This document shows positions 28,384-47,700 of a stretch of DNA of 64,000 bases, piece after piece. This stretch comes from Ianthella basta (lineage: Eukaryota; Porifera; Demospongiae; Verongiida; Ianthellidae). A program made the position numbers and the translations under genes. The notes under the pieces are model-generated. The model was given only the letters and a program-made list of their open reading frames with translations, made no database searches and had not been told where the DNA came from. The stretch covers positions 5,807,011-5,871,010 of the forward strand of contig OZ025889.1 in the NCBI GenBank assembly GCA_964019415.1, in the 5' to 3' direction. Positions within the stretch are counted from its first letter, which is position 1; each line of letters begins with the position of its first letter.

Positions 28384-30287
28384 TTACTTGTAAGAATTAA
28401 ATGTGACCCAGTGAGCTTTGGCTGTCTTCCCCTTTGGCTCGCTGGAGGTGAATATCGACTTGTATGCATCCCTTGCCGTGTAATCCTCCTCCTCCAACAG
28501 CTTCTTCTCTGATAAGACCTTTGTAACCATTTGCTTTGCTGTACCCTTCAAAGTGGTGGCCGTTGGAACAGTAGCAGAAGGCTTGCTGGCTTTCTTCTCC
28601 TTCTTTGTCATAACCGCACCATTCATCTCTGCCCCCTCCACCTTCCCAGCTCCCTTGGTCCGGTCCTCTTCACTGTCATTTGGTTTAGTCCTCTTCCCAC
28701 TTGGAGGTGCATCATGCTTGTCCTCATCCGACAGCTTATCTCCATTCTGCTGAACAGCAGAAGCAGACCTCTTCTTCTGTAAGAAACAAGTAAAAGGACA
28801 CATGTACATCTCCTTTCCCTTGCTACACAACACAGTGCATAGGTACATGGCAGACTACTCCAGTGCACAGTACAACCTCACACGGACACAGCCAACACGC
28901 TACAGCACATTCGGGCAGATGTCTAAAACAATTGCAGTAATCAGCACTGGTCATGCAGCGTCTTATTCAGCGGGCACGATAAGTCAATCTCCTGTTCTCC
29001 ACAACCTTTGGTGACTGACTGATAATGTTGGCTGGATATGATTTCACGTCATAATTGAATGAAACCTTCACTGCTATTGAAGCTGTTATACGAACTGAGT
29101 CAAACAACTGCTATTGGAGGAAAGGTTCCACTTGTACGTGACATAGAAATGACGCCATCAGCATGTTGGCATTCGTCACATACCAACACTCCCACACATG
29201 AACTAGATTGTAACGTGTGATGCTGCAGTAAATTCATTAACTTGCTACAGAGACAAGTAGCACGGCTGACCTACAGTCATGTGCTGTGTAGGAGATGAGT
29301 TGTTTTGAGATGGCTGGTTGCAACACTTTGGCAACCAGCGTTGCTATGGAGATCGTGTCAATGGCTTGCGTACCTTAGACAGTTTTGCCTGTTTCTTCCG
29401 TTCCTCAAGTGCGACAGTTTGCTTCTTCACATCTTCTTCATCTCCATTGATTACAATTACATCTTCGGCTGTGAAGGGACGACTGCAGACATGGCAGTTC
29501 TTTGAAGGAGCCTCTTTGAGTGCGCGTTCGGAGAATACGCAGCAGCACTGGAGAAGATACACAAACCTGGGGTGGGATCAGAGACAGTAGTGGCATGAAA
29601 GTGTACAAGCACAGTTAGATCTGTGATCTAGTGCACCAACAATTTCAAACAGGAAACTATTTCCTTTCTACGTCATTCCTGTGAGTGATCTGTCAACAAA
29701 AGGTTAACAGGACTGCTGGCTGGCATTCTTCAATGCACCAACAATTTCAAACAGGAAACTATTTCCTTTCTATGTCATTCCTGTGAGTGATCTGTCAACA
29801 AAAGGTTAATTAACAGGACTGCTGGCTGGCATTCTTCACTGCAGCCCCTACCAGGCAGCATCCGAAGTACGCAGGAAGGATTCGAAGGAATGAGAACCTA
29901 TGTAAGAGAAATGGAGTATCACCGCTCATTACTCATCACCCTCATCCCTCACCACTCATCACCACTCACCGCTCATTACTCATCACCCTCACCGCTCATT
30001 ACTCATCACCCTCACCGCTCATTACTCATCACCCTCACCGCTCATTACTCATCACCCTCACCGCTCATTACTCATCACCCTCACCGCTCATTACTCATCA
30101 CCCTCACCCCTCATCACCCTCACTCCTCATCACCCCCACCCTCCCCTCTCCCCTCCCCCACTCACCTGTACACCCCACTCATCTCTGTGCCTGTGACAGG
30201 ACACACATACTCTGCTGCTTGTGTGTCCTCAAAACTGTCTCCCTTCTTAAAAGATGGGTTCACAGTCAAATTCAGCTGCACAACATC
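28384..30287 (-). pseudogene. RTF2 3' fragment, unit C (exons 3, 4 and 5)
   Basis: Exon 3 is 30166-30287 (starts DVVQLNLT, includes EYVCPVTGTEMSG), exon 4 is 29374-29566 and exon 5 is 28384-28776. All splice sites are intact and phases agree with the full gene. Exons 1 and 2 exist only at 52.2-52.6 kb, so this copy has no start unless it is reached by very long-range splicing or uses its own promoter. It is the most complete of the three partial copies. Confidence 0.85.
29915..30125 (+). repeat. Minisatellite, ~21 bp unit, RTF2 intron, unit C
   Basis: Tandem CTCACCGCTCATTACTCATCACC copies lie between RTF2 exons 3 and 4. Confidence 0.85.
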
Positions 30288-30834
30288 CTGTGGGCACACA
30301 ACAACGGATACACAGTAGTCACACATCACACAACGCTTACCTTGTGTCATGAGATAGTCTGTCTATACATTACATCATAGGGACTGCCACCAAGAGAAAC
30401 TAAGAATAACATCAAGGGGAATTCCCACCAAGTCTCCAATCAATTCATGAACTCCCACCCTAAGTAGCCTGTCAGAGTCAGTTGACAAGTGCACATGTAA
30501 CACAATGGGCAGCATACTGACATTACTGGTAGCAGAAGTGGACCGCGATGTCTCAGTGCAGTTGGTAAGGTTGGTAAGCTCATCTATACAGGGGAAGCCT
30601 TTAGTCAGCGGCTACTATTCTAGGCACCCTGAAAGAACACAGTACAACAAGAAAAAAAGAACAGAACAGAAGTGGACCGTGATATCTCAGTGCAGTGTCT
30701 GTTAGTTCTAGCCGTTTCTTTGTTCTGTTCCACACCGGAATATTGCACTGGTGTAAATGGGGTATTGTGTAGTCATTATTTGACAAGTAAACTGTGTGTC
30801 AGCTGTGTGCAACAGGCAATGTGTACTTAGACTA

Positions 30835-30840
30835 TATAAA
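30835..30840 (+). promoter_or_regulatory. TATA box of the disrupted plus-strand CE4 gene
   Basis: TATAAA within CTATATAAAG, identical to the one at 47152-47157 in front of the intact paralogue. Confidence 0.5.
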
Positions 30841-30963
30841 GCTACAGTGAAATTGAAAGTTTACACACCTCACAACAAACGAAAGGTCAAGGCCTCCCAT
30901 TTAAGGCAGTAGGAAATTACCACAACAGGCAAACAGAACAGAGACCGAGACCTCTCAGCGAAG

Positions 30964-31169
30964 ATGTATTTGTTCCTCTCCTCCCTCCTCCTCCTGCTGC
31001 TGACCCTCCCCCCAGTTGGGGCCACTCCTGCCAAGCCTTGTGTGGAAGCTGACTGCAAGCTACCCAACTGTCGCTGTGCCAGCACTGGGATCCCAGGGGG
31101 ACTGCCATACTATGAAACACCACAGATTGTCACCATCACTGTCGACGATGGACTCAGAGTGGAAGACTA
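30964..31169 (+). pseudogene. Chitin deacetylase-like gene, 5' part, interrupted by insertion
   Basis: A signal peptide (MYLFLSSLLLLLL), the Cys box LPNCRC and TVDDGLRVEDY match the intact gene at 47275-48396 almost base for base. The frame is cut at the TA at 31168-31169 by the 7.86 kb insertion. The rest of the gene is at 39030-39751. Confidence 0.9.
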
Positions 31170-31187
31170 CGCATGTGGGACATGGCT
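31170..31187 (+). repeat. Left 18 bp terminal inverted repeat
   Basis: Perfect inverse of 39012-39029, next to the TA target site at 31168-31169. Confidence 0.9.
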
Positions 31188-32280
31188 ATGTAAACAATGC
31201 GCAGCCGATTTTGACCTAAGTATTTTGGCTAATATCTCCTAGCAGCTTTGCTGGATCTAAGCGGAAGAAGCACTGAACGGAAGCCAAGGGACCGCTCTGT
31301 AACACTGTGAATAAGCGTTGTTAATAATACTTTTGTACATCGAGAAATACCGACAATTGCAAAGCCACTGAAACAGCAGTAAATGCCGATGTCGCTATCG
31401 AGGAAAAGTCACAGCCGCTAGAGAAAGGTATGATTGGATGCGCATTCGTATTATCTAACTTTTGCATGTGGCATAAGTTGTTAAAGCAATCCGCTGACAA
31501 CTTATAGCAAGAAAACTATCACAACTTGTTGGTGTTCAAAATGTCGGGTCACATAACTCTAGATAGGAAGGATGCGCAGCATTATGCCTCATGCAAAAGC
31601 TAGAGATATTACTTGACTAACCATTTAGTTAGACGTGGTTAATGCCGAGGCGCCCATTCTCATTTCCTACCTAGCAATATTGGGAGTGGAAAGGTGCATG
31701 TTCCTTGTAAAAATGGCTACCCGACGAACGGACCAATAGGAGGGACCGCTAATTTAAATGGCTGGAGCCCGAACGTGCGGCTAATCATTTCGTCGTTGCG
31801 TTGCGCCGCAACGTTACCGACGCTCCTTGCTCTCGTCAAGAAGTGAACGCTTTCGCTGTCGCTGGACTTTGTTGTCTCCCTGTCTATTGTCCTTCATTCC
31901 TCCACACGTGACATGAGTTGTCCCTCCTCAAGGGCTGCCCCATACCCCTCGGTCCGGGGGTCATGGCCTCAGAATACTGGGCCACTGCTTCCGCCCCCCC
32001 CCCCCTACCCCTCCCACCTCTCGCTGAGGCCTCTCTAATGGTCAACCACTAATGTTCAGTTATCTGTATGCAGTGTATTAGATTAATTGCTAACCAGTTC
32101 TTGGCTTTAGCTGTCCTCTCTTTATCGTGTTCTTGTATTAGTTCCTCTACAATATTAAAACACATTGACGGTATGATGGGCAGTCCTTGCTCTATAATTT
32201 ATCATTTGTTGTAATGAATTCTTTGCTGATAATTATGGTTATCCTTTGATTATCACCTGCTAGATTCCCATGTCTCTATT
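31188..32280. other. Left non-coding arm of the 7.86 kb element
   Basis: No open frame of note. It contains a run of C (about 31994-32005) and a short hairpin CGTTGCG...CGCAACG near 31795. No gag-like gene was recognised. Confidence 0.4.
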
Positions 32281-33872
32281 TCTCGTGGACTTCAAGCGTC
32301 TGGGCTCCTTGCGGCCCATTTCTGCAAGTTGCAGACTACCCATTTGGCATGCCAGTATGTGGCACCGTACCTCCCCCCTGAGGCATTAATAATTCAGACA
32401 CCTCTAAAAGTGGACAAATGGTCTACCGCGCTACGCTCACATCCCAACCAGGTCTGGGCCCAGGCACTGGTGGAAGGCCTTAGGACTGGGGTTCGGATTG
32501 GCCGCTCCCCTGCACGAGTTTGTAAAAGGACTAAGGCCAATTGTCGGTCTGCACGTGACCATCCGTACGTCATTGACAAGTACTTGGCCAATAAATTAGC
32601 ATTGGGTCGAGTGGCAGGCCCATTTGCTGATAGTTTGCCTGGTGTCATGATCAGCCGTTTTGGCGTCATACCAAAATCTGGCTAACCAGGAAAATGGCGC
32701 CTTATTGTCGACCTATCTGCCCCGTTGGCGGCAAGTGTCAATGATGACATTAGTAGTGTGGATTCAGGGATGGCCTATTCATCTGTCGCAGACGCTGCCA
32801 GGCTCATTTTGCAGCTTGGTGTGGGTACGGAAATGGCTAAGATGGATATTGCAAGTGCCTTTCGGCTCATCCCTGTACATCCTGATGATCGCCACCTTTT
32901 GGGCATGAAATGGAAGGAACAAGTTTACTATGACATGCAACTGCCTTTTGGCTTGCGATCAGCCCCTGTCCTTTTCAACGGTTATGCAGATGCATTGGAA
33001 TGGGTCATCCGTTCTGCAGGTGTGCCATACATCCTCCATTATTTGGATGATTTTCTGGTATTGGGTCCTCCTCGTTCAGGGGTTTGCAGAGATGCATTAG
33101 GTCACATGCTCACTACTTGCCAGTCTCTAGGGGTGCCTCTAGCCGAAGATAAGGTAGCAGGACCCGCTACCTCTCTGGTTTTCCTTGGTATCGAGCTTGA
33201 CTCTGTCTGCATGGAAGCAAAATTGCCCAAGGAAAAACTCACTCGACTTTGCCAAGAGCTTCAGCAGTGGGCCATCCGAAAATGCTGCAAGCGTAAAGAG
33301 CTAGAGCATTTGTTGGGGGTCCTAAACTTCGCCTGTACAGTACTACCTTCTGGACGGTCTTTTCTGCGGCGAATGTTCTCTCTGCTGCACAGTTCAAAGG
33401 ATCCCAATCGGTTTCTTAGGCTGAATGCAGAGTTCAGGTCAGACTTGGCCTGGTGGCCGGCCTTTGCCAGCAGATGGAATGGGATCTCTTTCTTGCAGCT
33501 CTCAGGTTCTGCTGAGCCCTCTGTGGTTTTCTACACAGAGGGTCGTGGGGCTGTGGTGCCATTTGGGGCTCCCAGTGGCTCCAGTGGGGAGGGCAACATG
33601 TCCTCTGCTTTTGTGACAACATGTCGGTGGTTGCCGCGCTCAACAAAGGCTCCTCAAAGGAGCCTTCCGGCATTGTCATGCACCTTCTGCGAACGCTTAC
33701 ATTCTTTTCAGCCATTTTTGGCTTTGTTCTGCGGGCTCAGCATGTGGCTGGCTCCAACAATGGCCCTGCGGATAGCATCTCCCGGGGTAACATGTCCCTG
33801 CTCTTCTCACAGGTGCCCATGGCATCCAGGGAGCCAACCTCATTCCAGATGACCTCTGGACTCTGCTGGTGA
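32281..33872 (+). pseudogene. DIRS-like reverse transcriptase and RNase H (broken)
   Basis: The frame from 32329 runs through a stop at 32683-32685 (TAA) into the RT at 32725-33852. RT blocks include MDIASAFRLIPVH (32845), LPFGLRSAP and the catalytic YLDDF at 33040. RNase H-like sequence follows, with the frame shifting near 33530-33620 (CDNMSVVAALNKGSS is in another frame from about 33612). Block order and wording match tyrosine-recombinase retrotransposons of the DIRS/Ngaro group. At least one stop and one frameshift make this copy inactive as it stands. Confidence 0.8.
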
Positions 33873-34848
33873 GAGAGCAGCCAGATTGGCTCTCAGAGAG
33901 GTAGAGGAATCTTTTCACTTCTTTTTGCAAAACGGCTTGGCCAACTCCACTAAGAGATGCTATGAGTCAGGTCAGCGCCGATACTTCACCTTCTGTGACA
34001 AAGTGAACTTCTCTCCGTTGCCTGCATCAGAAAATTCTATCGCCCTATTTATCTCCTACTTGGGAAGCGAAAAGGTATCTTACAAAACGATAAAGTCATA
34101 CTTGGCTGCAGTTAGACATCTACATATTTCATTTGGTTTATCTTTCATTGGCTTATCGCCTCGTACCCATCTACTTATCAGAGGTATAAAGCGTACTCAG
34201 AGTGATGCTGCAGTTAGACCACGCCTACCAATCACACCTTCTGTTCTCCGCAACATCAAAACCAGCCTGGCAGGTAAACCCTTGGATTACGACAATTGGT
34301 TGTATTGGGCTGCCATGTGTCTTGCCTTCTTCGGCTTCCTCTGCTGTGGGGAGTTCACAGTACCGGAGGGTCAGGAGTGTGATGCCTCTGTCCATTTAAT
34401 GGTGAATGACATTGCCATGGACCCTGGCTTATATCCTGCTGGCATCTCAGTGCATATCAAAGCTTCCAAGACCGATCCCTTTCGACAAGGTGTTACATTA
34501 TACCTTGGGAGAACCGGTGTTGACCTTTGTCCTGTGGCTGCCATGGTTGATTTTTTATCAGTCCGGGGGTCCTCGCCTGGGCCCTTATTTCAGTTCAAGG
34601 ATGGTTCTGCCCTCCATCGGCAGCAGCTTGTGCGTACAGTTCGAAGTACCCTTGCTGGTCAGGGCTTTGATGTTTCCCAGTACTGCGGACATAGCTTCCG
34701 CATTGGGGCTGCCACAACTGCAGCCCAAAATGGGATTGAGGACTGTGTCATTAAGACATTGGGGCAGTGGGAGAGCACAGCTTACCAACTATACGTCCAT
34801 ACACCCAGAGCCACGCTGGCATTCTACACCTCCAAACTTACAAAATGA
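33853..34848 (+). pseudogene. Tyrosine recombinase of DIRS-like element (first catalytic Arg replaced)
   Basis: The open frame has no ATG near its start, as expected if it was read by shifting from the RT frame. An N-terminal SAM-like core-binding part (NSTKRCYESGQRRYFTFC) is followed by the catalytic part: FFGFLCCGEF, KTDPFRQG, HSFRIGAAT and LGQWESTAYQLYV. These supply the Lys, the HxxR box, the His/Trp position and the nucleophilic Tyr. The usual FLRxGEF at the first catalytic Arg reads FLCCGEF, so that Arg is Cys (codon TGC). The recombinase would join circular DNA intermediates; this copy is likely defective. Confidence 0.82.
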
Positions 34849-35581
34849 ATATTGTACGCTTTTGGCTATCGTACATTGACTGTATGATTGATTTGACCAT
34901 GACAGCTCACTGGATTATTCTCTGTTTGACTGCAATCATGTCCACTATGTGTATGTTATTGATTATCGAGACTTGCTATGCTTGGCGTCTGTTCTAATGA
35001 GGGTAGTTGGGAGGTAGAGTGTCCTATCATACTGTGTACATACGTACCTGTAGCTGTTCCTTTTTCTTTCTTTTGCTGTTGTGGCCGATGCTTTGGAGCC
35101 AATGGCCTTCTACTTCGTATCAGCCCATTTTGGGAGGTTACACTGGTCCAAACCATCTGCTGTGTGGTCGGACAACCGAACTCTTCACGTGACCTACGGC
35201 CAAATATAACCAGTTATATGGTTAGGCGATCGTAGAAGAGACGGCCGGCTTGATCTGGATGTTGCAGCACAACGCCGGACGGCCATTTGCCAAGAATGGT
35301 AAGCTGAGGGACATTAATCTGAAAGTACAAGGTGAAAGCCTATTAGCATGTGATGTCACGTGGTATTCTCGTGACATTTTCGGAAAATGGCTGACAATCG
35401 TTGTGCTTCCCGTGATTCGACGGTTCCGCTCGAACGACTCGATCAACCTTCTGCGATTTGGCTTCCTCACAAATAATAATACATAAGGCACACATGCGCA
35501 CTGCCTTGGATAATAAACAACAGACACAACAGAGACAAACCAAATGTCATAGTTGATATAGTAGTTAGTAGTTAGTCATAG
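34849..35581. other. Spacer between the two convergent modules of the element
   Basis: No gene recognised. If two elements are nested, one boundary should lie here, but I could not find a clear repeat pair. Confidence 0.4.
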
Positions 35582-38500
35582 TTAGCCCATCATTTGGGCT
35601 TCGGCATGCATGAGGATGAAATCGAGTGGAGCAATCGGGTGATGCAGTGATCTTGATCCTCTGATAGCGCAAATGGAGGATCTAAGAAGGGCAAATGAAA
35701 TCTTGCAGCGAATCAGAAACATCATCTTGGAGAAGCCGATCTTCTTCTCAGCCAGGATGTCAGCTAGTCTCTTGAAGAAGACAGTGCATTCTCTTGCCAT
35801 TCCTCCCATTGATGAAAAAACTAGAGGCGTAAATGACGCTTTCTCAACTTCGCGCACTCTCTCACCATAGCTTCTCTTCTTCTCTCCCTCATGCTGATTG
35901 TAGATTGCCTTGAGCTGTTTCTGGCGATAGGATGGGGCAATTGGGTAAAAAAACCCTTACATCAAAAAAGGCATCCCTTCCTTTTGACCAAAAGTCACTC
36001 ACTTTGATGTCAAGTCACGCCTCATCATCACAATTGCTTGAGCGGAAGTTGAATTCCTCATCATCAAGGGCTTGCAGTGGAGGTTCTACGGACACACCTT
36101 TACACGTCTCTGCAAGCAGGGCAGCAGTCAGGTCACGCACTTCATTGTGCCGCAGGGTGGGCAGCCCACCTTTGTGGCAGATCATTGCGTGGTCCACAGA
36201 GAATGGCTTGCCGCAGGCGCACTTTGTGCTCATGCCTGGCAGTTGCCAGCCGTACTGTAGACTGAGTGCATCTCTAAATGAGCTCTTGCTGAGACAGAAG
36301 CCATGCTCCTCCACAGGTAAAGCTGACAGCCATGTAGAGGCGCCCGGCTCACAAGCACAATCCAATAGCCTCCTACTTGGTGGCTCCAGGGCATCATAGA
36401 TCCTTGCAAAGTTGCTCTCCTGTTGCTCTTTCTTTCTTCTCTTGATGTCATTGATGGAGGTGTTTGCTGAGGTAGGATCCTGACTGAATACTGTTTCTTG
36501 GCTGATGATGGATTGAACCATGGATGCTGTGATTTCTCTAGAAGCATTGTGTTCGTGGTCAGCTATGGAAGTAGGATCTGTCAAACCTAATCCCCCCAGC
36601 TTTGTTGGGAGAGCCAATAGTGCCCGCTCCTCCCGTGAGCATGGGGGTCTTCCAGTGATGGTAGGGATAAGCTTCTGTTGTATTGCATCTTCCACAGGTT
36701 GCAGGAGATGGCCACAGTTAGCCACTGTTCTACACACGTAGTTCCATTTGTTCTTTGTGCCATGCACAAACGCTGCATAAGCAGCCTGTGGCTGACTACC
36801 TGCAACTTCAGCAAGCTTCTCCACCTCCATTCTCCATTCATCCACTTTGTGCTTCACATATTCTTCTACAAAGGGGACTGATCCAAGTGCACCTCCCAAA
36901 TGCCTCTTTCCTTTGGTGGTAATAATGATGCCAGCTGCCCCAAACACTGCTTGGGCTGCCTCCTCATCATCCGGGTGTATGACAAGGCAGGTTTTAGATG
37001 CCTTTGGATGGTATCCAAAAGATGGACCCAAGGTGGATAGCGCATCCCACCACTGCCTCAGTCCTTTGAAAGATCCTGCCCCAGAGGCATCATCCGCAAA
37101 CCAGACCTGAGCAAGTGATTCACAGATCTCATTCAACTTAAGCATGAGAGGGACGAGCGAGAGGGCAAACATGGCCATACCAAGTGGGTCGCCTTGTGTG
37201 GTACCCTCTTTAGAGAGTAGTTCCCCTCCCCTTGGCACAATCAGGCGACTTGGTATCTGGTAGCAGTTGTTTAAGACAATAGCAAGTGCAGGACAAACAT
37301 AGGAGATGTTGTGAAGTGCTACTTTCCTATTCAAGGAGTTGAAAGCATTCTCAGCATCTACAAGTAGCATTCCTTGGCTCTCCGGCTCTTCGAACAGTTC
37401 TGTCATGACATGAACAGCTGCCTCACAACCACTAGGTATGCCAGTGCACATTTGCAGTGGACCTGCAGATACCATAACATCCTTCTTTACAACAATCATT
37501 ATGGCCTTGCAGATGATTCGCCTGGCTACCTCTCCAACCCCAATAGGGCGGGCCCCAGGATTCTTATTCAGTGGGACTAGTCTGCATGCGAGTAGCGCAC
37601 CCAGTCCATCTGGTGGTACCATAGTTGTGCAGATCCTATGGGCAACTCTCGCCAAGGCTTCACAAAGGTTCGATGAAGCTTCCTTGTAGGAAGAGCACAT
37701 TCTTCGCCAGGCTACAGCATCCACTCCCGATGGTCCAGCAGATCCTTTTGAATGCAAGGCAACATTTTTGATAACATCTCCATTCAAGCACTCAAACATA
37801 ACAGGGTCCATAGGCAATGCATTTGGCAGGGATTTGTCCAAGAGGGCTGTTGGATCAGCTGGTTGTCCTTCAGGATGGAGGGACAGCAAGACATCTTTCA
37901 CCGTTTTGGTGGAGCCATCATTAGTGGTGATGATGTCATCCATCTTCAATGGTGTTCTGGAAGTATGTCTTGACAGATAGTTAAGAGCACCTCTGACGTT
38001 CCCTGCAAACATCATTTTGCTGAAGGCCCGTGAAACAGACTCATTCACTGTGTGCAGCTCGCTCTTTGGGAGGTGGGCTTGGATACATCTCCCCTCACTT
38101 AAGAGAGCGTTGATGTCACCCGCTTTCCAAAGTGTTAAGTGTCTTCTGAGATGTTTAGCGTGGTCTTTTGCTTTGCTCTTTTGGGATGGCTTCTGTAGCA
38201 GCAGCACATGCATCAGCATGCATGCTTTTAAGGCAATACTCTCAAGGGTGGACTTGCTGGCATAAGACTCAAACAGATCAGCAGTTTCCTGGATGAATGA
38301 CTTGGCTACTTTACCCATAGGGAGTAGGAACAGGTTCCTTCGCCACTGTACAACTTCATCGTAGCCCTTGGAAACTTTTTCACAGAATTCAACCCCACTT
38401 CGATTTCCCCACATGAAGTTTGGCGGTTCAGATCTAGGCTCACCTTCCACCGAGTCTTCATTATCCACCCAATCAGCCTGAACTGGAGATGGCAAATTAT

Positions 38501-38780
38501 GCCGAACTTCTCTGGGGGCTTCTCTGGGAGCTTCGCTTTCTTCTTCTTCAAACCCCTCTCCATCACCTTGCGGTTCTGGAGATGGTGCTGCCGTTTCCTG
38601 ATTCGACTCGGCTTCACCTGAATCGCTCACGTTCTTACATTTGTCCAGTTTCATCGGCAAACAATTCGAACAATTTCTTCTGGCTTTGGCACATCCACAT
38701 CCTGAACAAGTGCCATGTCTATTGCATCTACAGCAAGGCATGATTAGCCGATCTGTACGAAGATTTGTGCTGTCTCCCAA
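35582..38780 (-). pseudogene. Reverse transcriptase with N-terminal Cys-rich domain and C-terminal endonuclease-like domain (two lesions)
   Basis: The minus-strand frame from 38780 encodes 921 aa to a TGA at 36015-36017. Near residues 14-50 is a Cys cluster (CCRCNRHGTCSGCGCAKARR) resembling CXC-type zinc modules. The RT domain shows NKNPGARPIG, LLVDAENAFNSLNR, EGTTQGDPLG and FADDA (37088-37105). After the TGA the same frame continues with LDI and FFDVRVF, like a PD-(D/E)XK restriction-type nuclease. A frameshift at an A7 run (35947-35953) then leads into a conserved tail (REVEKASFTPLVFSSMGGMA, then LIRCKISFALLRS). Restriction-type nucleases follow the RT in some non-LTR retrotransposons. I recognise this RT-tail combination from invertebrate genomes but cannot name the family. 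Confidence 0.72.
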
Positions 38781-39011
38781 ATCAGTATATCATACTCCAA
38801 CCGCCAATGACCGCCATCTTGTCCATCAATCGGCCATTTGGCTTCCTCCCGTCTTCAAGAACGTACGTAGCAGCCAAACACTACATTTTAAGGCCATTTC
38901 GTCATGACCTTTTGTCAAATCACGCGAATGTCACATGACAATGCTCGCGTAGCCATGGCAACACAGGAATTCACACCTTTCAGGTGTCATACTTCCTTAA
39001 GTAAACAAAAC

Positions 39012-39029
39012 AGCCATGTCCCACATGCG
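39012..39029 (-). repeat. Right 18 bp terminal inverted repeat
   Basis: Perfect inverse of 31170-31187, followed by the TA at 39030-39031. Confidence 0.9.
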
Positions 39030-39751
39030 TACGAAAGATTCTACAGCAAATTCCTTGTTGGTTGCAAAATCCCCAATGGATGTCCGATTCTGATGACCCA
39101 TTTCGTCTCACACAACAACACTGACTTTGCACTGGCAGAGGACCAGTTCTCAGCTGGGCATGAGATTGCCGAACACTCTTCCCTCATGGGAGCAACTGTG
39201 TCAGAGTTGGCGGAGATATGATTGACCTGCGAACCATCCTGCAGGCATGGGCTGACATTCCAGCCAAGTACACTGTTGGGTATCGGACTCTTGTCCCAAG
39301 CGTGAATGCAATAGAAGCTCTTTTTCAGAGTAACTTCATCTACGATGCTTCCATGCCCACCAACGGTCCACTGTACTGGCCTTTCACTTATGACTACAAG
39401 TCTCCTCTCTGTACCTTCCCAGCTGTCTGCCTGAACAACTCCTATCCAGGACTTTGGGAGCTGCCTGAAATTGACTACAAGCAGAAGGATGGCATGCTAT
39501 GCATTCAGATTAACGCATGTGTCTACCCAGCGCCTACCACTGAAGAGGGCTGGTTTGAACTGCTCATGGACAACTTTGAGAATCACTATTACGGAAACAG
39601 AGCTCCTTTTGAGGTGCACACCACTCCAGCATGGTATTTCATGACTGGGAACCCCCTCCAGGCATTCAACACCTTCCTGGACAAGATTCAGTCCCTTCCA
39701 GAGGTCTACATCATCACTCAGTCTCAGATGTTGGCCTGGGTTCGCAGCAGT
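39030..39751 (+). pseudogene. Chitin deacetylase-like gene, 3' part after insertion, frameshifted and truncated
   Basis: Continues the gene cut at 31169 (ERFYSKFLVG onward). One base is lost near 39210 compared with the intact copy (GGCGGAGATATG against GGCGGAAGAAATG), shifting the frame. It stops abruptly after LAWVRSS at about 39751, where the leader TTAAATTTACC of the unit D palindrome begins. The final Cys-rich tail is missing. The gene was broken by insertion, frameshift and truncation. Confidence 0.88.
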
Positions 39752-39774
39752 TAAATTTACCATTGAGCAATGCA

Positions 39775-40042
39775 GTGAGGAGACAAACTGTCACATCCTG
39801 GGATGTGTGCGGTCAACTGAGGATACAGTCACATGGGTGTGTGTGATCATAATAACAATAATACTATTATCATGGTCACACACACCACATTGCACACATG
39901 TGTACCACATTACACACACAATGTGTGTGATGTGGTGTGCAATAATAATAATATTATTATTATGATCACACACACCCATGTGACTGTATCCTCTGTTGAC
40001 TGTACACATCCCATCAGAAGTGACAGTTTGTCTCCTCACGCA
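39775..40042. repeat. ~270 bp near-palindrome, copy 4 (unit D)
   Basis: Same inverted arms as the other three. Here its leader is fused directly to the truncated CE4 pseudogene, which marks a duplication breakpoint. Confidence 0.8.
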
Positions 40043-40776
40043 GGATGAGGTGGTGTTTTAGTCATACATACACCTCTGTGTATTACACCTACACCTGCAA
40101 CACGTGCAGTCTTAATGACTAGCAGGCTGGGGACCAGAGCCCTATTGATTGCAACCAGTGATTGTCTCCTCCCCTTTAGTCACCTAGCCTCGCACCCAGT
40201 CCCTCTTTACATTCCCATGCACTTCCGCTCAGGAGGGAGAATGGAACTGTGAATGGAAATAGGGACTGGGTATCAGAGGCTGTCAGACACCCACAAAGAT
40301 TGAGACATCAGTTGCGTCCAATGTCTGTAGATTCCATTGAAATCAACCTACATCTGCACACCATGTACAATGTAGGCCTACTCCTCAAGTGGTAGCAGAA
40401 TGATGTTAAATGCACTAAACTTCATATACACACCACAATATGTGAACAGTGTATCAAGTATGTAATACTATAGGGGTAACTACTGTTAGTCCTGTGAGAG
40501 CTGTACACAAGGTTGTTGCACACCCACAGATACACAGTGCATGATAACATTGTGTTGGTCATGCAATTACAGGACTCCTTTACTGACAGCTTCTTATGTA
40601 TCTTTTTTAATTTGAAGCAATTGATGGTCAGACAATCATTAAATGTTCAAAATTAATGATAATACAAATTAATTTACATTAGAGCATGTAGGAATATTAA
40701 TAGTTCAAAATAAATGGTACACTTTCCAAATAGTGTGAAGAATATAAACTTGTAATGAATTGCATACAAAACATAA

Positions 40777-43700
40777 TCAAGCCAGGGCAACATCAGTGCT
40801 TGGGTTTGTAATAAGTTCTACCTGCAAGGCGGTCACTCCCTTGAAGGCAGCAGCCCTCTTCCTCTTAATGAAGTAAGCGACCTACACAAAGAGGATTAGC
40901 ACAGAGGATACATAACAGACATTTCACTCACTGCCACAAACACAATGGTGCTGACACAACATGAAGCAAACGAGTATAGTGAGATTTCATAACAGATAGT
41001 CGTACAATAGCTGACATCATGTACCATGCGAAGTGCATGTTCTGTTGGCTATAAAACGTGTACACAGAACCATAACTGCACAGCACACACACATAGCTAT
41101 ACAGTGTGACTGCACTGCAAAAGGCAGTGTACAACAATGGGTGTGATAAGCACCTATTGGTGATATGTGATATACTTACCAGTACTGTAGCTGCAGCAAT
41201 GCTGGCAGCTGCTACTGTCAGTCCCACCACAAGTCCTACTGCCAGGCCAGCGGTGCTAGTGGTGTCCGACTGTAGCCCGGGAGCCGCTGCACTGCCCTCA
41301 CCGAAAGTGTTCACTACTGACCTAGAAGGTGTAACAGTCACTGAGGTAGTGTGAACAACTCCTTCTGAGGGGCTAGGTTGAACTGTTTCAGAGTAGCTGG
41401 GTGGAGTCCTCTCTGAGGTGCTGGGTGGAACTGTGTCTGAAGAGCTAGGTCGACCAGTTTCAGAGGAGCCGGGCAGAGTCCTTTCTGAGGAGCTACGTGG
41501 AACAGTGTCTGAGGAGTTGGGAGGAACAGTTTTAGAACTGGACAGAAACATTTTTGAGGAGCTGGGTAGAACACCTTCAGAAGAACTAGGTGGAACACTT
41601 ACAGATGTTGAAAGGTCAGCACGTGTTGTTGAAGGTGATAGAGCCTCTGACAGTTCTGTCAGTGCTACTGATGCACTGGTGGTAGTTGGTGATAAGGTAT
41701 CTGCTGCTAGTGTGGATGTCACACTGTCTGTCTCTGATGTAGAGGGCTGTGTGGACAGGGCTCGGTTTTCCCCTAAGGGATTTCCCAGGCCAGGAGCATA
41801 TGCCGGACAATCGGCACATAGCTTCAGATACAAACTACCTGTGTTTGTTGTGTAGCTGCAAGATGTAGCATTGCTCTGGTAGTCACATCTTGGGGGAGGG
41901 AGGGGGGGACAACTCCATGGCAGAAAGTCACTTATTTCGCTCAAGGGGGTGGGGCTGCGGACCCAGTCCAACAGCTGTGAGTGAGTGACAAAGTAAGTGT
42001 CAGTGAAGTTTGCTACGTAATCAAGGAACTCCTGCAAGGCCTGCACACGTTCAGGGAAGTAGAACCACGACACACTAGCATAGAGGCTGAATGGGGCTTT
42101 GTTGCCATCGTAGTGTCGGTGAAAGTTGCTCTTGAAGAAGCTAAGCCACTGGTCTTTGGTCACCGTGTGCAGACAGATGTCCAACTCCCCGCAAGTGAAG
42201 ATGGTGATATCCTGCTCATGAAGAATGTTGGGCAGGATCCAGAGGCCAGGGTAGGGGGTGTCAGGGCAGGTGGCTGGGCTGGTGCAGATGGGGGACTTGT
42301 AGTCCAGTGTGAAGGGCCAGTACATGGCGGCAGTTTCCATGGATGCATCGTACAGAAAGCCATTGTCGTGTAGGACACGCAATGCATTCTCACTTGAGGC
42401 ACGGAAAGGAGCACGGAACCCCTTGATATCACTCTCTGCCACATTGGCCCACACTCTTATTATCTCCTTCATGTCCACAATCTCCCGAGTTAGGTTCTCA
42501 ATACTGGCTCCTGCCCACCAGGAGCCGGGCGATCTTGCAGTGACGGAGTAGTCAGCTATTTCATGACCCTCTGCATCAAGACTCTCAACCAATGCATGAC
42601 TTGTGAAGGTATTGCTGACGAAGAACGTGGCTGGAACATTGCATCCATTGGGGTTTGTTCTGCCAGCCAGTACCGGTCTGTGGTAGGTGTCATAGCTGCT
42701 CTCCTGTAGGCTACCGATGAAGCCTAAAGTGATCATTTGTGGAGTGTTACTAGCGGCCAGTCCCCTGGGGATATCTGTTCCTGCACACCGGCAGTTGGGC
42801 AGCTGGCAGTCCTCTTGGCTGCAAGCTACAGGGGGGTCCACAGTCTCATTTGGATCGGACACACTTCCATTTGTCCCCCGGATGTCCCCAAACCCAGGGA
42901 TTACAACAGGACACTGTGAAGTGCTGGGAACTGCACAGCTCTTGAACTGCATCCAGGGTGGGCCAGGGTAGACACAGCTGACAGCAGCCTGGTAGTTGCA
43001 GGAGGGGGGAGGGAGGGAGGGACACTTCCAGGGATTGAACTCTTGTATTTCACTCAGGGAGGTGGGGTGGCGGACCCACTCAAGCAGTTGGGTATGGGTA
43101 ACAATATAGGTGTCTTGGAGGTTTGCAGCATAATCTAGAAACTGCAGCAGTCCTTCAATGCGGTTCTTAGTTGTGTCAAAGAACCAAGCCGCATGGAGGT
43201 ATATCCCGAAAGGTGCTCGATTGCCATTGTAATGTCGCTCAAAGTTGGCCACAAGCAGGTCATAGACTTGCTGCTGGTTCTGCGGGTACGTGCAACTGTC
43301 AAGCATTCCACAGCTGGCGCCATTTTCCTGTAGGAGACGTATGTTTGGGATGACCCACAGCCCCGGGTAGGCCTCAATGGGACAGGTAGCAGGAGTGTCA
43401 CACAGGGGAGACTTGTAGTCGAGCGTGAAGGGCCAGTACCGGGTGGGGGTCTGCATTGAAGACTCGTACGTGAAGTTATTAGCTTGCAGGACCCTAATTT
43501 GGTTCTCACTGGTTGCAAGGAAGGGCGTCCTCCAACCCTTGACGCTGTCGCGAGGAAGGCCTCCCCAAGTTTGCATCATGTCCCGCATGCCGACAATCTC
43601 ACCGGTCATGTTCTCCACACTGCCTCCATGCCACCACGTGTCCAGCTCCGTTCGGTGCGTAATGGAGTGGGAGGCCATCTCGTGGCCTTCCGCCGCCAGC

Positions 43701-44020
43701 GTCTGCAGCAGAGCGTAATCCGTATTGTCGTGGCTGACGAAGAAAGTGAAACGAATGTCGCAGCCGTTCGGGTTCTTCCTCCCAGCGAGTATCCTCTTGA
43801 AGAACATCTCGTGGTCGATCACTCTCACAGCATCGTCGAAGCTGATGGTTATCATCTGCGGGGTGGCGTTAGCGGCAAGACCTCCAGGAATGTCCGTTCC
43901 AGCACAGCGACAGCTGGGGAGGCCGCATGCTTCGGGCGCGCAGGGTTGTGCCGTAGCTGCATAGACCGACCCAACCTGAGTTAGCAGAAGGAAAACACAC
44001 TTTAAAATCAGAAGTCCCAT
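40777..44020 (-). CDS. Two-domain chitin deacetylase-like protein, copy D
   Basis: Complement(join(40777..40881, 41180..44020)), 981 aa. Start MGLLILKCVFLLL at 44020; the TATA at 44068-44078 makes the outer ATG (44041) less likely. Domain 1 keeps SFDDA, HSITH, WRTPF and YLHAAWF. Domain 2 has FIGS and YSVTA instead of FDDG and HSVTH, so it should not bind the metal. The Ser/Thr stalk is the shortest of the four (about 165 residues, one higher-order unit). The membrane helix is split by a phase 0 intron (GTAAGT donor here, GTAAGG in A-C), and exon 2 gives VAYFIKRKRAAAFKGVT. It lies directly downstream of the complete RTF2 gene in the same orientation and may represent the ancestral arrangement. 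Confidence 0.85.
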
Positions 44021-44067
44021 ACTGCAGTCCGCGATTGGCATAAGAGATCGTTGCAGATTGCACCAGT

Positions 44068-44078
44068 TATATATATAG
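44068..44078 (-). promoter_or_regulatory. TATA box, CE4 copy D
   Basis: TATATATATAA on the minus strand, 48-58 bp upstream of the preferred ATG. Confidence 0.55.
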
Positions 44079-44744
44079 CATTGCACGTGATCAAAGAGCG
44101 TCACCTCGAAGATCCCCTTCCTAGAAATCCGATTTAAGCATGCATCCCCTGGCCTTCCTTATTCAGTGCACTCAAACCAAAAGTACATATGTGACATACC
44201 ACCAGCACAAGGTACGCAAACAGTGAACGTGACTATATTATGAGCTAGTGAATTAATGGCAATGATCTATAGTTTGGAGGTATTCATAAAGTGGAAATTA
44301 CAACGTGTGCTAGGAAGTTGTGGTGCTGCCCTTTTCTATTTTGCTGATCATACGGAGACAGAGACTATACAAGGCTTAGAGTTGCATTTCAAGGGACTTT
44401 TCAACATCATCATAACCTCTTAAGTCATGATGATAGTGATTGAGTTCACAGGTTCATTATCCATTAAAGGTTACAAGAGTGTACTGTGTTACAATGGTGC
44501 TACTCAGTCCACTGCTACTGCAGCTGAGATGAAGAAGCTAGGGGCAACAACAACTAGCTAACCAGCACCAAGAGTATTTTAGTACTCCTGGTGGTACTGA
44601 GACCGAACAAGTACAGATCAATTGGTTCAGCAATACATGGCTGTGTCATTACAACAATGGGCTGAATAAAAACACACAATACAATGGTATAGGGTGAGGG
44701 TTTGGACATAAACACTGTCATGTGACAGTCATGTGACATAGATG

Positions 44745-47700
44745 TTACTTGTAAGAATTAAATGTGACCCAGTGAGCTTTGGCTGTCTTCCCCTTTGGCT
44801 CGCTGGAGGTGAATATCGACTTGTAAGCATCCCTTGCAGTGTAATCCTCCTCCTCCAACAGCTTCTTCTCTGATAAGACCTTTGTAACCATTTGCTTTGC
44901 TGTACCCTTCAGAGTGGTGCCCGTTGGAACAGCAGCAGAAGGCTTGCTGGCTTTCTTCTCCTTCTTTGTCACCACCGCACCATTCATCTCTGCCCCCTCC
45001 ACCTTCACAGCTCCCTTGGTCCGGTCGTCTTCGCTATCATTTGGTTTTGTTCTCTTCCCACTTGGAGGTGCATCATGCTTGTCCTCATCCGACAGCTTAT
45101 CTCCATTCTGCTGAACAGCAGTATGAACAGCAGAAGCAGATCTCTTCTTCTGTAAGAAACAAGTAAAAGGACACATGTACATCTCCTTTCCTTTGCTACA
45201 CAACACAGTGCAGACATGGCAGACTACTCCAGTGCACAGTACAACCTCACACGGACACAGCCAACACGCTACAGCACATTCGGGCAGATGTCTAAAACAA
45301 TTGCAGTAATCAGCACTGGTCATGTAGCGTCTTATTCAGCGGGCACGATAAGTCAATCTCATGTTCTCCACAACCTTTGGTGACTGACTGATAATGTTGG
45401 CTGGATATGATTTCACGTCATAATTGAATGAAACCTTCACTGCTAGTGAAGCTGTTATACGAACTGAGTCAAATGGCCGCTATTGGAGGAAAGGCTCCAC
45501 TTGTTGTGATATAGAAATGACACCACTGGCATGTTGGCATTTGTCACATACCAACACACCCACACATGAACTAGATTGTAACGTGTGACACTGCAGTAAA
45601 TTCATTAACTTGCTACAGAGACAAGTAGCACGGCTGACCTACAGTCATGTGCTGTGTAGGAGATGAGTTGTTTTGAGATGGCTGGTTGCAACATTTTGGC
45701 AACCAGCGTTGCTATGGAGATCGTGTCAATGGCTTGCATACCTTGGACAGTTTTGCCTGCTTCTTCCGTTCCTCAAGTGCGACAATTTGCTTCTTCACAT
45801 CTTCTTCGTCTCCATTGATTACAATTACATCTTCAGCTGTGAAGGGACGACTGCACACATGGCAGTTCTTTGAAGGAGCCTCTTTGAGTGCGCGTTCGGA
45901 GAATACGCAGCAGCACTGGAGAAGATACACAAACCTGGGGTGGGATCAGAGACAGCAGTGGCTTGAAAGTGTACAAGCACAGTTAGATCTGTGATCTAGT
46001 GCACCAACAAGTTCAAACAGGAAACTATTTCCTTTCTACGTTATCCCTGTGACTGGTTTGTCAACAAATAGGTTAACAGGACTGCTGGCTGGCATTCTTC
46101 ACTGCAGCCCTACCAGGCAACATCCGAAGTACGTAGGAAGGATTCAAAGGAATGAGACAACCTAAGAGAAATGAAGCATCGCCACTCCCCCCTCATCACT
46201 GTCATCCGTCAACCCTCTCTCCTCGTCACACATCGTCACCCCTCACCACCCTCACTCCTCATCACCCATCGTCACCCCTCATCACCCTCACCCCCACTCC
46301 TCGTCACTCATCATCGTCACCCCTCATCACCCTCACTCCTCATCACTCATCACCCCCACCCTCACTCCCCACTCCTCATCACTCATCACCCCCACCCTCA
46401 CTCCCCACTCCTCATCACCCTCACCCCTCATCACCCTCACTTCTCATCACCCCCACCCTCCCCTCTCCCCTCCCCCACTCACCTGTACACCCCACTCATC
46501 TCAATGCCTGTGACAGGACACACGTACTCCGCTGCTTGTGTGTCCTCAAAACTGTCTCCCTTCTTAAAAGATGGGTTCACAGTCAAATTCAGCTGCACAA
46601 CATCCTGTGGGCACACAACAACGGATACACAGTAGTCACACACCACACGATGCTTACCTTGTGTCATGAGATAGTCTGTCTATACATTACATCATAGGGA
46701 CTGCCACCAAGAGAAACTAAGAATAACATCAAGGGGAATTCCCACCAAGTCTCCAATCAATTCATGAACTCCCACCCTAAGTAGCCTGTCAGAGTCAGTT
46801 GACAAGTGCACATGTAACACAATGGGCAGCATACTGACATTACTGGTAGCAGAAGTGGACCGTGATGTCTCAGTGCAGTTGGTAAGGTTGGTAAGTTCAT
46901 TTATACAGGGGAAGCCTTTAGTCAGCAGCTACTATTCTAGGCACCCTGAAAGAACACAGTACAACAAGAAAAAAAGAGCAGAACAGAAGTGGACCGTGAT
47001 ATCTCAGTGCAGTCTCTGTTAGTTTTAGCCGTTTCCTTGTTCTGTTCCACACCGGAATATTGCACTGGTGTAAATGGGGTATTGTGTAGTCATTATTTGA
47101 CAAGTAAACTGTGTGTCAGCTGTGTGCAACAGGCAATGTGTACTTTGACTATATAAAGCTACAGTGAAATTGAAAGTTTACACACATCACAACAAACAAA
47201 AGGTCAAGCCCTCCCATTTAAGGCAGTAGGAAATTACCACAGCAGGCAAACAGAACAGAGACCTCTCAGCGAAGATGTACTTGCTCCTCTCCTCCCTCCT
47301 CCTCCTGCTGCTGCCCCTCCCTCCGGTTGGGGCCACTCCTGCCAGGCCTTGTGTGGAAGCTGACTGCAAGCTACCCAACTGTCGCTGTGCCAGCACTGGG
47401 ATCCCAGGGGGACTGCCATACTACGAAACACCTCAGATTGTCACCATCACCGTCGATGATGGACTCAGAGTGGAAGACTACGAAAGATTCTACAGCAAAT
47501 TCCTCGTTGGTCGCAAAAACCCCAATGGATGTCCGATTCTGATGACCCATTTCGTCTCACACAACAACACTGACTTTGCACTGGCAGAGGACCAGTTCTC
47601 AGCTGGGCATGAGATTGCCGAACACTCTTCCCTCATGGGAGCAACTGTGTCAGAGTTGGCGGAAGAAATGATTGACCTGCGAACCATCCTGCAGGCATGG

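Follow-up and report, generated by a model that had tools for sequence, protein, structure and literature searches.

The 7.86-kb insertion that interrupts one copy of a duplicated gene in the window (64,000 nt of Ianthella basta DNA; assembly GCA_964019415.1, contig OZ025889.1, positions 5,807,011 to 5,871,010 of the forward strand) is, with a probability of about 97%, an ordinary nest of a MITE and two unrelated, broken retrotransposons, assembled in three independent events. A first-pass annotation had proposed either two retroelements nested within a cut-and-paste element or a composite element that moves both as a unit. Our analysis bears out the former and not the latter.

The arms of the insertion, TACGCATGTGGGACATGGCT (31168-31187) and AGCCATGTCCCACATGCGTA (39012-39031), are complementary at 20 of 20 positions, flanking TA included, confirming the perfect terminal inverted repeats (TIRs) that the annotation had described. 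The left TIR (31170-31187, + strand) and right TIR (39012-39029, - strand) are the only sites in the window that match with three or fewer mismatches; shuffled sequences are expected to yield 0.09. The two copies of the 2-bp target duplication, TA, lie at 31168-31169 and 39030-39031. An intact paralogue of the interrupted gene (47275-48396, + strand) contains the exact empty site, also as claimed: the match to the upstream flank reaches 47480 and that to the downstream flank begins at 47479, overlapping by TA. Identity between the flanks of the insertion and the paralogue is 95% and 97%. The host gene, which may resemble polysaccharide deacetylases, had no match in a Pfam search.

We searched for the TIR in the 209-Mb genome, allowing up to two mismatches, and found 261 forward and 261 reverse sites (522), compared with 12 and 9 for a reversed control pattern. 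Our listing covered about 100 of these sites, and we read 30. At 27 of these a partner TIR (≤4 mismatches) was in view, with 3 having none within 1.5 kb; some of the 27 represent opposite ends of a single element or duplicated loci. Identical 2-bp flanks and a length of 768 to 925 bp were found at 23 of the 27, and the MITEs read fall into size classes of 841-843 and 911-919 bp. Like other MITEs and non-autonomous TIR DNA transposons, they are short, numerous, bounded by near-perfect TIRs, and flanked by a target duplication of fixed length. The TA duplication claimed earlier is thus real at the window copy, but the 2-bp duplication of the family is not TA-specific; its variability distinguishes these MITEs from both Tc1/mariner and ISL2EU. 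Tc1/mariner elements duplicate TA, and we rejected this assignment since TA was found at none of the 23 loci, the window copy apart. Assignment to ISL2EU was also rejected: AT was found at only 3 of the 23, whereas a 5'-AT-3' target duplication characterises that group (PMC4482050). Reading the ORFs of one 4.2-kb TIR pair (C3:2048363-2052562) revealed none that is transposase-like. An ISL2EU-like element inside another copy of insert A (copy c1b) encodes THAP plus DDE_Tnp_4 and YqaJ domains; it is not an obvious partner of the MITE because its TIR is a different one (GAGCTTATGCAGT).

Alignment of the insertion to an 842-bp MITE (locus L013) showed that the MITE in the window is split three ways, with aligned segments of 457, 152, and 181 bp at 98.7, 95.4, and 95.0% identity. 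The left piece occupies 31170-31626, the middle piece 35317-35468, and the right piece 38836-39029, all on the + strand. Insert A separates the left and middle pieces, and insert B the middle and right pieces. The boundaries of B are marked by a 13-bp direct repeat (ATTTGGCTTCCTC), identified by a repeat search and by the MITE alignment, with copies at 35456-35468 and at 38836-38848, the latter within the right MITE piece. The repeat is MITE sequence and occurs once in each of nine other MITEs aligned. At the left edge of A, the window copy lacks approximately 43 to 50 bp of the MITE centre. Because these ~50 bp are missing, the left junction of A is not that of a clean insertion, and a secondary deletion must be assumed.

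Insert A (31627-35316, + strand), delimited by its ends and by copies elsewhere, is a decayed tyrosine-recombinase (YR) retrotransposon. Its first 14 bp are gone, and a region of about 1.5 to 1.8 kb that in three other copies of A contains a gag-like frame is absent at 31918/31919. An in-frame TAA (32683-32685) precedes the region with the RT and the remains of RNase H (32686-33852), in which 90 bp of RNase H found in two other copies are missing at approximately 33584/33585. The YR frame (331 aa; 33853-34848) has FLCCGEF in place of the FLRCGEF of its relatives, whose Arg is presumably catalytic. In a Pfam search of the + strand, RVT_1 exceeded its curated cut-off (E = 1e-12), phage-integrase domains scored below theirs (E = 6e-5 to 3e-4), and the truncated RNase H reached only E = 0.12; hence, of the RT/RNase H/YR module annotated here, RT and YR were recovered but the RNase H is incomplete. 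The nearest YR of solved structure is Cre (E = 3e-4). Elsewhere in the genome we found 7 five-prime and 6 three-prime termini of A (7 three-prime including the window), with differing flanks. Fuller copies have the gag-like frame and a longer RNase H, both assigned by reading the sequence, with no significant Pfam match. One other copy (C1:2595238-2605240) sits within a TIR element that belongs to a related family and is flanked by TG/TG; the copy occupies the place in that MITE equivalent to that of A in the window and is inverted. The association of A with a MITE is therefore not unique to the window.

Insert B (35469-38835, - strand) is a decayed RLE-type non-LTR retrotransposon (LINE) with a 13-bp target duplication and with copies elsewhere, and is 95% identical to a copy on C15. 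Its outermost bases (~13 at the 5' end and 4 at the 3' end) are not common to other copies. The main frame (36015-38741, - strand) has a Cys cluster, an RT, and a zinc-knuckle-like motif, and stops inside a putative endonuclease-like region, the C-terminal part of which lies in another frame (35582-35956). RVT_1 matched a 924-aa frame on this strand with a score below the Pfam cut-off (E = 6e-5). Two modules do face each other between the TIRs, as first noted, with RT and YR on the + strand and this RT frame on the - strand. The Cys cluster and RT of the annotated Cys-cluster/RT/restriction-nuclease-like gene are likewise present, but its nuclease region is cut by the stop and is longer in relatives. 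B-type elements elsewhere sit in other flanks, some with target duplications of their own; the picture is mixed, with 8 bp at the C15 copy and none evident at those on C4 or C14. In a sister family, three copies read are 99.7 to 99.9% identical and have an intact ORF of ~1036 aa; two have clear duplications, of 10 and 14 bp, and the third, in a tandem repeat, is uninformative. Among solved structures, R2 is most similar to the B-type RT (E = 1.6e-5). B-type elements resemble RLE-type LINEs (R2, NeSL, CRE, Hero, Utopia, and others) in having a single ORF, an N-terminal Cys cluster, an RT, a knuckle-like motif, a putative C-terminal endonuclease-like region, and target duplications at some copies. 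They differ in having an A-rich tail in 2 of 3 sister copies, in lacking one fixed insertion site, and in the spacing of the knuckle, which is CX1CX7HX3C instead of CX2-3CX7-8HX4C (PMC5678591).

Could the TIR element instead transport the YR module together with the RT-endonuclease gene, all as one mobile unit? Intact TIRs and a 2-bp duplication do enclose both modules, and the second A copy is also inside a related TIR element. There is a precedent in MarCry-1_FO, a YR-Mariner (Crypton-Mariner) composite with TIRs and TA duplications; its four copies are >97% identical and share the composite structure (PMC3212892). The insertion resembles MarCry-1_FO in having a YR gene between TIRs and a 2-bp duplication, but we saw no second copy of its arrangement. 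Indeed, DNA similar to A or B was found in none of the 30 TIR loci read (27 two-ended). The only protein-level match to either module among them, at locus L026, lies outside the MITE and represents the converse nesting, a B-like gene with a 917-bp MITE inserted between its residues 812 and 816. A and B each have their own ends and copies elsewhere, and the ends of the YR module lie inside the window insertion, save for the 14 bp lost at the left. The nearest other A-B pair is 42 kb apart, among 37 A and 62 B matches compared, the B match list coming from the scoring of 40 of 191 candidates. Moreover, duplicated MITE sequence flanks B, the orientation of A is opposite in the two MITEs, and both modules are decayed in the window. 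Beyond the 30 loci read, of which 3 had no partner TIR in view, another TIR element with A or B inside may exist, but we consider a composite transposon extremely improbable.

MITEs often arise through internal deletion of a parent element, and the 7.86-kb element could on that basis be the autonomous parent of the 842-bp MITEs. We give this next to no credence. The ~43 to 50 bp at the MITE centre are missing from the window copy, the duplication that brackets B occurs once in the MITEs aligned, and both MITE size classes are without A or B DNA. Graded remnants of A or B at MITE breakpoints were found in none of the 30 loci, and the frames scanned contained no transposase domain. We concluded that the insertion is a nest of three independent elements.

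A-type elements combine RT, RNase H, and YR (the RNase H by reading; Pfam not significant), and we compared them with a related, intact-looking 6.8-kb YR retrotransposon family, F1. These elements resemble DIRS-order YR retrotransposons (DIRS1-like, PAT, Ngaro, and VIPER) in the shared orientation of a gag-like frame, RT, RNase H, and YR, and in the 3'-to-5' junctions of tandem copies, as circles predict. A target duplication adjoined the ends in none of 5 copies with both flanks, as in that order, although in 2 of the 5 one 6-bp word recurs no more than 15 bp from each end. Tandem copies of F1 are joined 3' to 5'. Unlike DIRS1-like elements, A and F1 have no methyltransferase domain that we could see and no inverted terminal repeats with internal complementary regions. 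The RT/RNase H frame of A has no Pfam match beside RVT_1; in both families this frame, by reading, stops ~80 residues past RNase H, and no terminal inverted match exceeds 8 to 9 bp. Unlike Ngaro, PAT, and VIPER, they showed no split direct repeats: the arrangement A1-B1-A2-B2 was not found when the 5' 420 bp and 3' 479 bp of A copy c1a were compared with the pieces of its element, or when F1 was compared with itself. A candidate split direct repeat (~217 bp) in a sister family, F3, was rejected in favour of an apparent 3'-5' junction in which the second unit is short. A palindromic, lox-like site (GTTTAACCGC-ATA-GCGGTTAAAC) lies within the first ~30 bp of F1, A has an imperfect version of it, and A and F1 share a conserved 3' end, CATTA(A). 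The junction predicted for F1 circles is CATTAA/ATGAAGTTTAAC. The titles and abstracts examined, which are no proof of absence, name none of the element families described here. A and F1 might represent a YR type without terminal or split repeats, in which circles integrate via the palindrome and ends are regenerated by transcription across 3'-5' junctions, with A steered to promoter-like DNA by a nearby CGTGAC motif; we think it unlikely that this is correct in full.

CGTGAC is the most enriched 6-mer in the 100-bp flanks of A, occurring 14 times in total and in 9 of the 14 flanks, compared with a background of 18 in 85,830 positions (P = 2e-19); 8 of 9 A sites (partly related) have it. The motif was, however, discovered and tested on the same data, the background is drawn from 86 kb around the window and the TIR loci, and the TIR-element flanks (5 of 54 with CGTGAC) themselves exceed it. 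Besides the pair of A copies that occupy equivalent places in related MITEs and face opposite ways, two others adjoin one shared repeat and are also inverted. The sites are not independent, some pairs having a MITE, a repeat, or a duplicated flank in common, so that approximately 6 groups remain, 5 of them with CGTGAC. In sister YR families, CGTGAC occurs in 2 of 9 right flanks (6 of 7 versus 2 of 9; Fisher P = 0.04) and 0 of 2 left flanks, and we rejected the motif as a rule for all YR elements on the basis of these 2 of 9 right flanks. A preference of A for promoter-like DNA with CGTGAC, carried by these MITEs, so that A lands in such MITEs above chance, is a tentative reading with the odds somewhat against it.

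The following reconstruction infers the enzymes, the intermediates, and the sequence in which A and B arrived. A non-autonomous MITE of ~842 bp would have entered one copy of the duplicated gene by cut-and-paste, duplicating TA, with a transposase supplied from elsewhere. A gag-RT-RNase H-YR retrotransposon, A, would then have integrated inside the MITE as YR-joined circular DNA, following the usual model for the class; subsequent losses would have removed gag, some of RNase H, and the leftmost end of A with ~50 bp of the MITE. Finally, target-primed reverse transcription would have placed B 152 bp to the right of A, facing the other way, and produced the 13-bp duplication of MITE sequence. 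The A and B modules do not function jointly. Stacking of three unrelated mobile elements at a single site can mimic one new composite element, and copies of each piece elsewhere resolve the apparent composite. If A and F1 do lack terminal and split repeats, such YR retroelements would need a way of completing their ends other than those of the DIRS and Ngaro models; and if the integration preference linked to CGTGAC is real, a compact eukaryotic genome would be available in which to test it.

The 7.86-kb TIR-bounded insertion proposed by the first-pass annotation lies at 31170-39029, and its terminal arms are complementary at 20 of 20 positions, including the flanking TA. No other TIR site occurs in the window at ≤3 mismatches. 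The claim of a base-exact empty site also held: in the intact paralogue of the interrupted host gene (47275-48396), similarity to the upstream flank stops at 47480 and similarity to the downstream flank begins at 47479, indicating that TA was duplicated. Between the TIRs, the two facing modules described earlier were recovered as an RT/tyrosine-recombinase (YR) module (plus strand) and an RT gene (minus strand). The host gene is represented by tandem paralogues at 30001-49500, without a Pfam hit; the interrupted copy starts near 30963, and another partial match lies near 49200-49500.

We searched the 209-Mb genome, whose content is eukaryotic, for the TIR at ≤2 mismatches and found 261 forward and 261 reverse sites, compared with 12 and 9 sites for a reversed control pattern. 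Thirty sites were read with 1.5 kb on either side, and partner TIRs were accepted at ≤4 mismatches. A partner was in view at 27 of the 30 loci (none at L003, L006, and L014), and the outer dinucleotides were identical at both TIRs in 23 of these 27 (lengths, 768 to 925 bp; the exceptions were L002, L005, L021, and L022). Nineteen of the 23 measure 841 to 843 or 911 to 919 bp. These counts include two ends of one element (L017 and L018) and a pair of near-identical loci (L023 and L024). The TA duplication stands for the window locus but not as a family rule, TA being only one of many dinucleotides: among the 23 loci we observed TT, TG, CC, AA, GG, CA, and others, with AT three times and TA not at all. 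Searching by TIR did not yield other copies carrying the modules, since DNA of either was present in 0 of the 30 loci. Given the many TIR copies of ~0.8 to 0.9 kb with a 2-bp duplication and without module DNA, the TIR element is thus a MITE. Alignment of the window insertion to a full MITE (L013) identified three MITE pieces in unchanged order: a left piece at 31170-31626 (98.7% to L013), a middle piece at 35317-35468 (95.4%), and a right piece ending at 39029 (95.0%). The remainder is two insertions: A (31627-35316, plus strand), a decayed YR retrotransposon, and B (35469-38835, minus strand), a decayed RLE-type LINE with RT.

The suggestion that A and B are partners in a composite was not borne out. 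They are separate elsewhere, the closest other pair being 42 kb apart among the 37 A and at least 62 B matches listed outside the window (for B, 40 of 191 candidates were scored). At one locus (L026) the nesting is reversed, with a 917-bp MITE (AA/AA flanks) interrupting a B-like RT gene that has diverged; the break falls between query residues 812 and 816. The distance between A and B matches and this reversed nesting are as expected of independent elements; A and B are not partners. A true composite of a YR gene with a TIR element has a precedent in MarCry-1_FO (PMC3212892); in contrast, the window locus is no such composite. Nested insertion of the kind seen here is ordinary, and the families concerned (the MITE, A, B, and the YR families) probably represent known kinds, as members without a name so far.

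A second A copy (C1:2595238-2605240) sits in a related TIR element (C1:2594920-2605841; L039 and L032) that has the TIR CGCATGTGGGTTATGGCA, TG/TG flanks, and a length of ~919 bp minus inserts. The right flank of this copy matches MITE left ends. Its position is equivalent to that in the window (318 bp from the right MITE end, versus about 333 bp), with inverted orientation; two further A copies adjoin one common repeat, likewise in opposite orientations. We read this association as site preference, not cargo. The most enriched 6-mer in the A flanks was CGTGAC, which occurred 14 times and was present in 9 of the 14 100-bp flanks, with a background of 18 in 85,830 positions (P, 2e-19), for few sites and a motif picked from the same data that test it. 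The flanks examined were from L032, L038, L042, L043, L044, L048, and L074, together with window positions 35317-35416. By site, CGTGAC was present at 8 of 9; when sites that have flanks in common were pooled (c1a with the window copy, c2 with c6b, and c1b with c1d), about six groups remained, five of which have the motif. CGTGAC was found in 6 of 7 right flanks of A versus 2 of 9 for sister YR families (Fisher P, 0.04), in 0 of 2 sister left flanks, and, likewise above background, in 5 of 54 TIR-element flanks. A second enriched word in A flanks was AAATGG/AATGGC. It is possible, judging from these words, that A prefers promoter-like DNA for integration. Promoters of the sponge Amphimedon carry E-box and YY1-like motifs (PMC4773876).

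Copies of A elsewhere share a 5' end (ATGGAGTTTAACGCAGTTAGACG) and a 3' end (GGTAAGCTGAGGGGCATTA), outside which the flanks diverge. The 5' end occurs at seven sites genome-wide, none in the window; the 3' end also occurs at seven, one of them in the window. In the window copy, the initial 14 bp of A are gone, together with ~50 bp of adjoining MITE. Two fuller copies (C1:2595238-2605240 and C1:3297834-3307305), into which a gypsy-type and an ISL2EU-like element have inserted, have a gag-like frame and a longer RNase H (VVFYTDASG...), and their YR reads FLRCGEF versus FLCCGEF in the window copy, which also has an in-frame stop within RT. On the basis of the lost 5' end, shorter RNase H, FLCCGEF, and the stop, we conclude that A is a YR retrotransposon remnant, dead at the window locus. 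The window copy starts exactly in the middle of the imperfect palindrome of A's 5' end, beside MITE GACTAAC (31620-31640), and for this reason the local deletion at its left edge may be a recombinase-mediated event. No duplication adjoins the A ends in five copies with both flanks read; in two of the five, a 6-bp word (CGATAT or CCAGAC) is repeated ≤15 bp from both ends, so a short target duplication is possible. A lone 32-bp stub of the A 5' end (L074, C1:3283608) stops at TTAATG, with a flank resembling that of c1b. The ISL2EU-like transposon within an A copy (L034 2956 to L042 1500; C1:3303042-3307020) has THAP, DDE_Tnp_4, and YqaJ; its duplication is TA or TATA, not AT, and its terminal bases are ambiguous.

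B is bracketed by ATTTGGCTTCCTC at 35456-35468 and 38836-38848, a sequence that is single copy in the other MITEs aligned. B copies elsewhere sit in other flanks; the copy on C15 has an 8-bp duplication, and none was evident at those on C4 and C14. Motifs (C-A-C-G...H-A-M-x-C, RHN, RLDV, and FFDIRV) mark a putative endonuclease region in the B type, inside which the window copy stops. A sister family is 68% identical to B. The RT is closest in sequence, among solved structures, to R2 proteins (E, 1.6e-5). Three sister copies (C19, C11, and C6) are 99.7 to 99.9% identical, with an unbroken frame of ~1036 residues. A-rich tails are present in two of the three. Target duplications are seen at two copies, one of 10 bp and the other of 14 bp; the remaining copy, inside a tandem repeat, is uninformative in this respect. 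From its sequence, this family has probably been active recently. The 5' end of these near-identical, intact-ORF copies (L076, L077, and L078) lies near AAAATGGCGGACA, which we take to be YY1-like.

The YR protein has 125 matches genome-wide. We read the downstream kilobase for 20, of which 11 could be placed in three sister families (F1, F2, and F3). Shared sequence stops at ACATTAA in all 11 family loci. An unbroken F1 copy of 6,809 bp (C2:9954814-9961622; L099 115-6923) has gag-like, RT/RNase H (614-aa), and YR (353-aa) frames. At two loci (L081 and L082), the F1 3' end runs straight into the F1 5' end, which is established from the termini of F1 itself; two F3 loci (L088 and L096) look similar, with a putative 5' end assigned by likeness. 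Integration as a circle or in tandem would produce such junctions. When F1 was compared with itself, and both ends of A with pieces of a fuller copy, neither inverted terminal repeats nor internal complementary regions nor split direct repeats were found. The sole repeats were a minisatellite within F1, a 23-bp palindrome at the F1 5' end (positions 6-28; GTTTAACCGCATAGCGGTTAAAC), and 8 to 9 bp of TTAATGCC/GGCATTA in A. DIRS1-like elements are defined by inverted repeats together with complementary regions; split direct repeats define PAT, Ngaro, and VIPER (PMC3266345, PMC4157794, and PMC6681497). A and F1 differ from the former in having neither inverted repeats nor complementary regions detected, and from the latter in that split direct repeats were not found. 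YR retroelements without terminal or split repeats are the most interesting lead, one drawn from a single genome and dependent on how sensitive the repeat search was.
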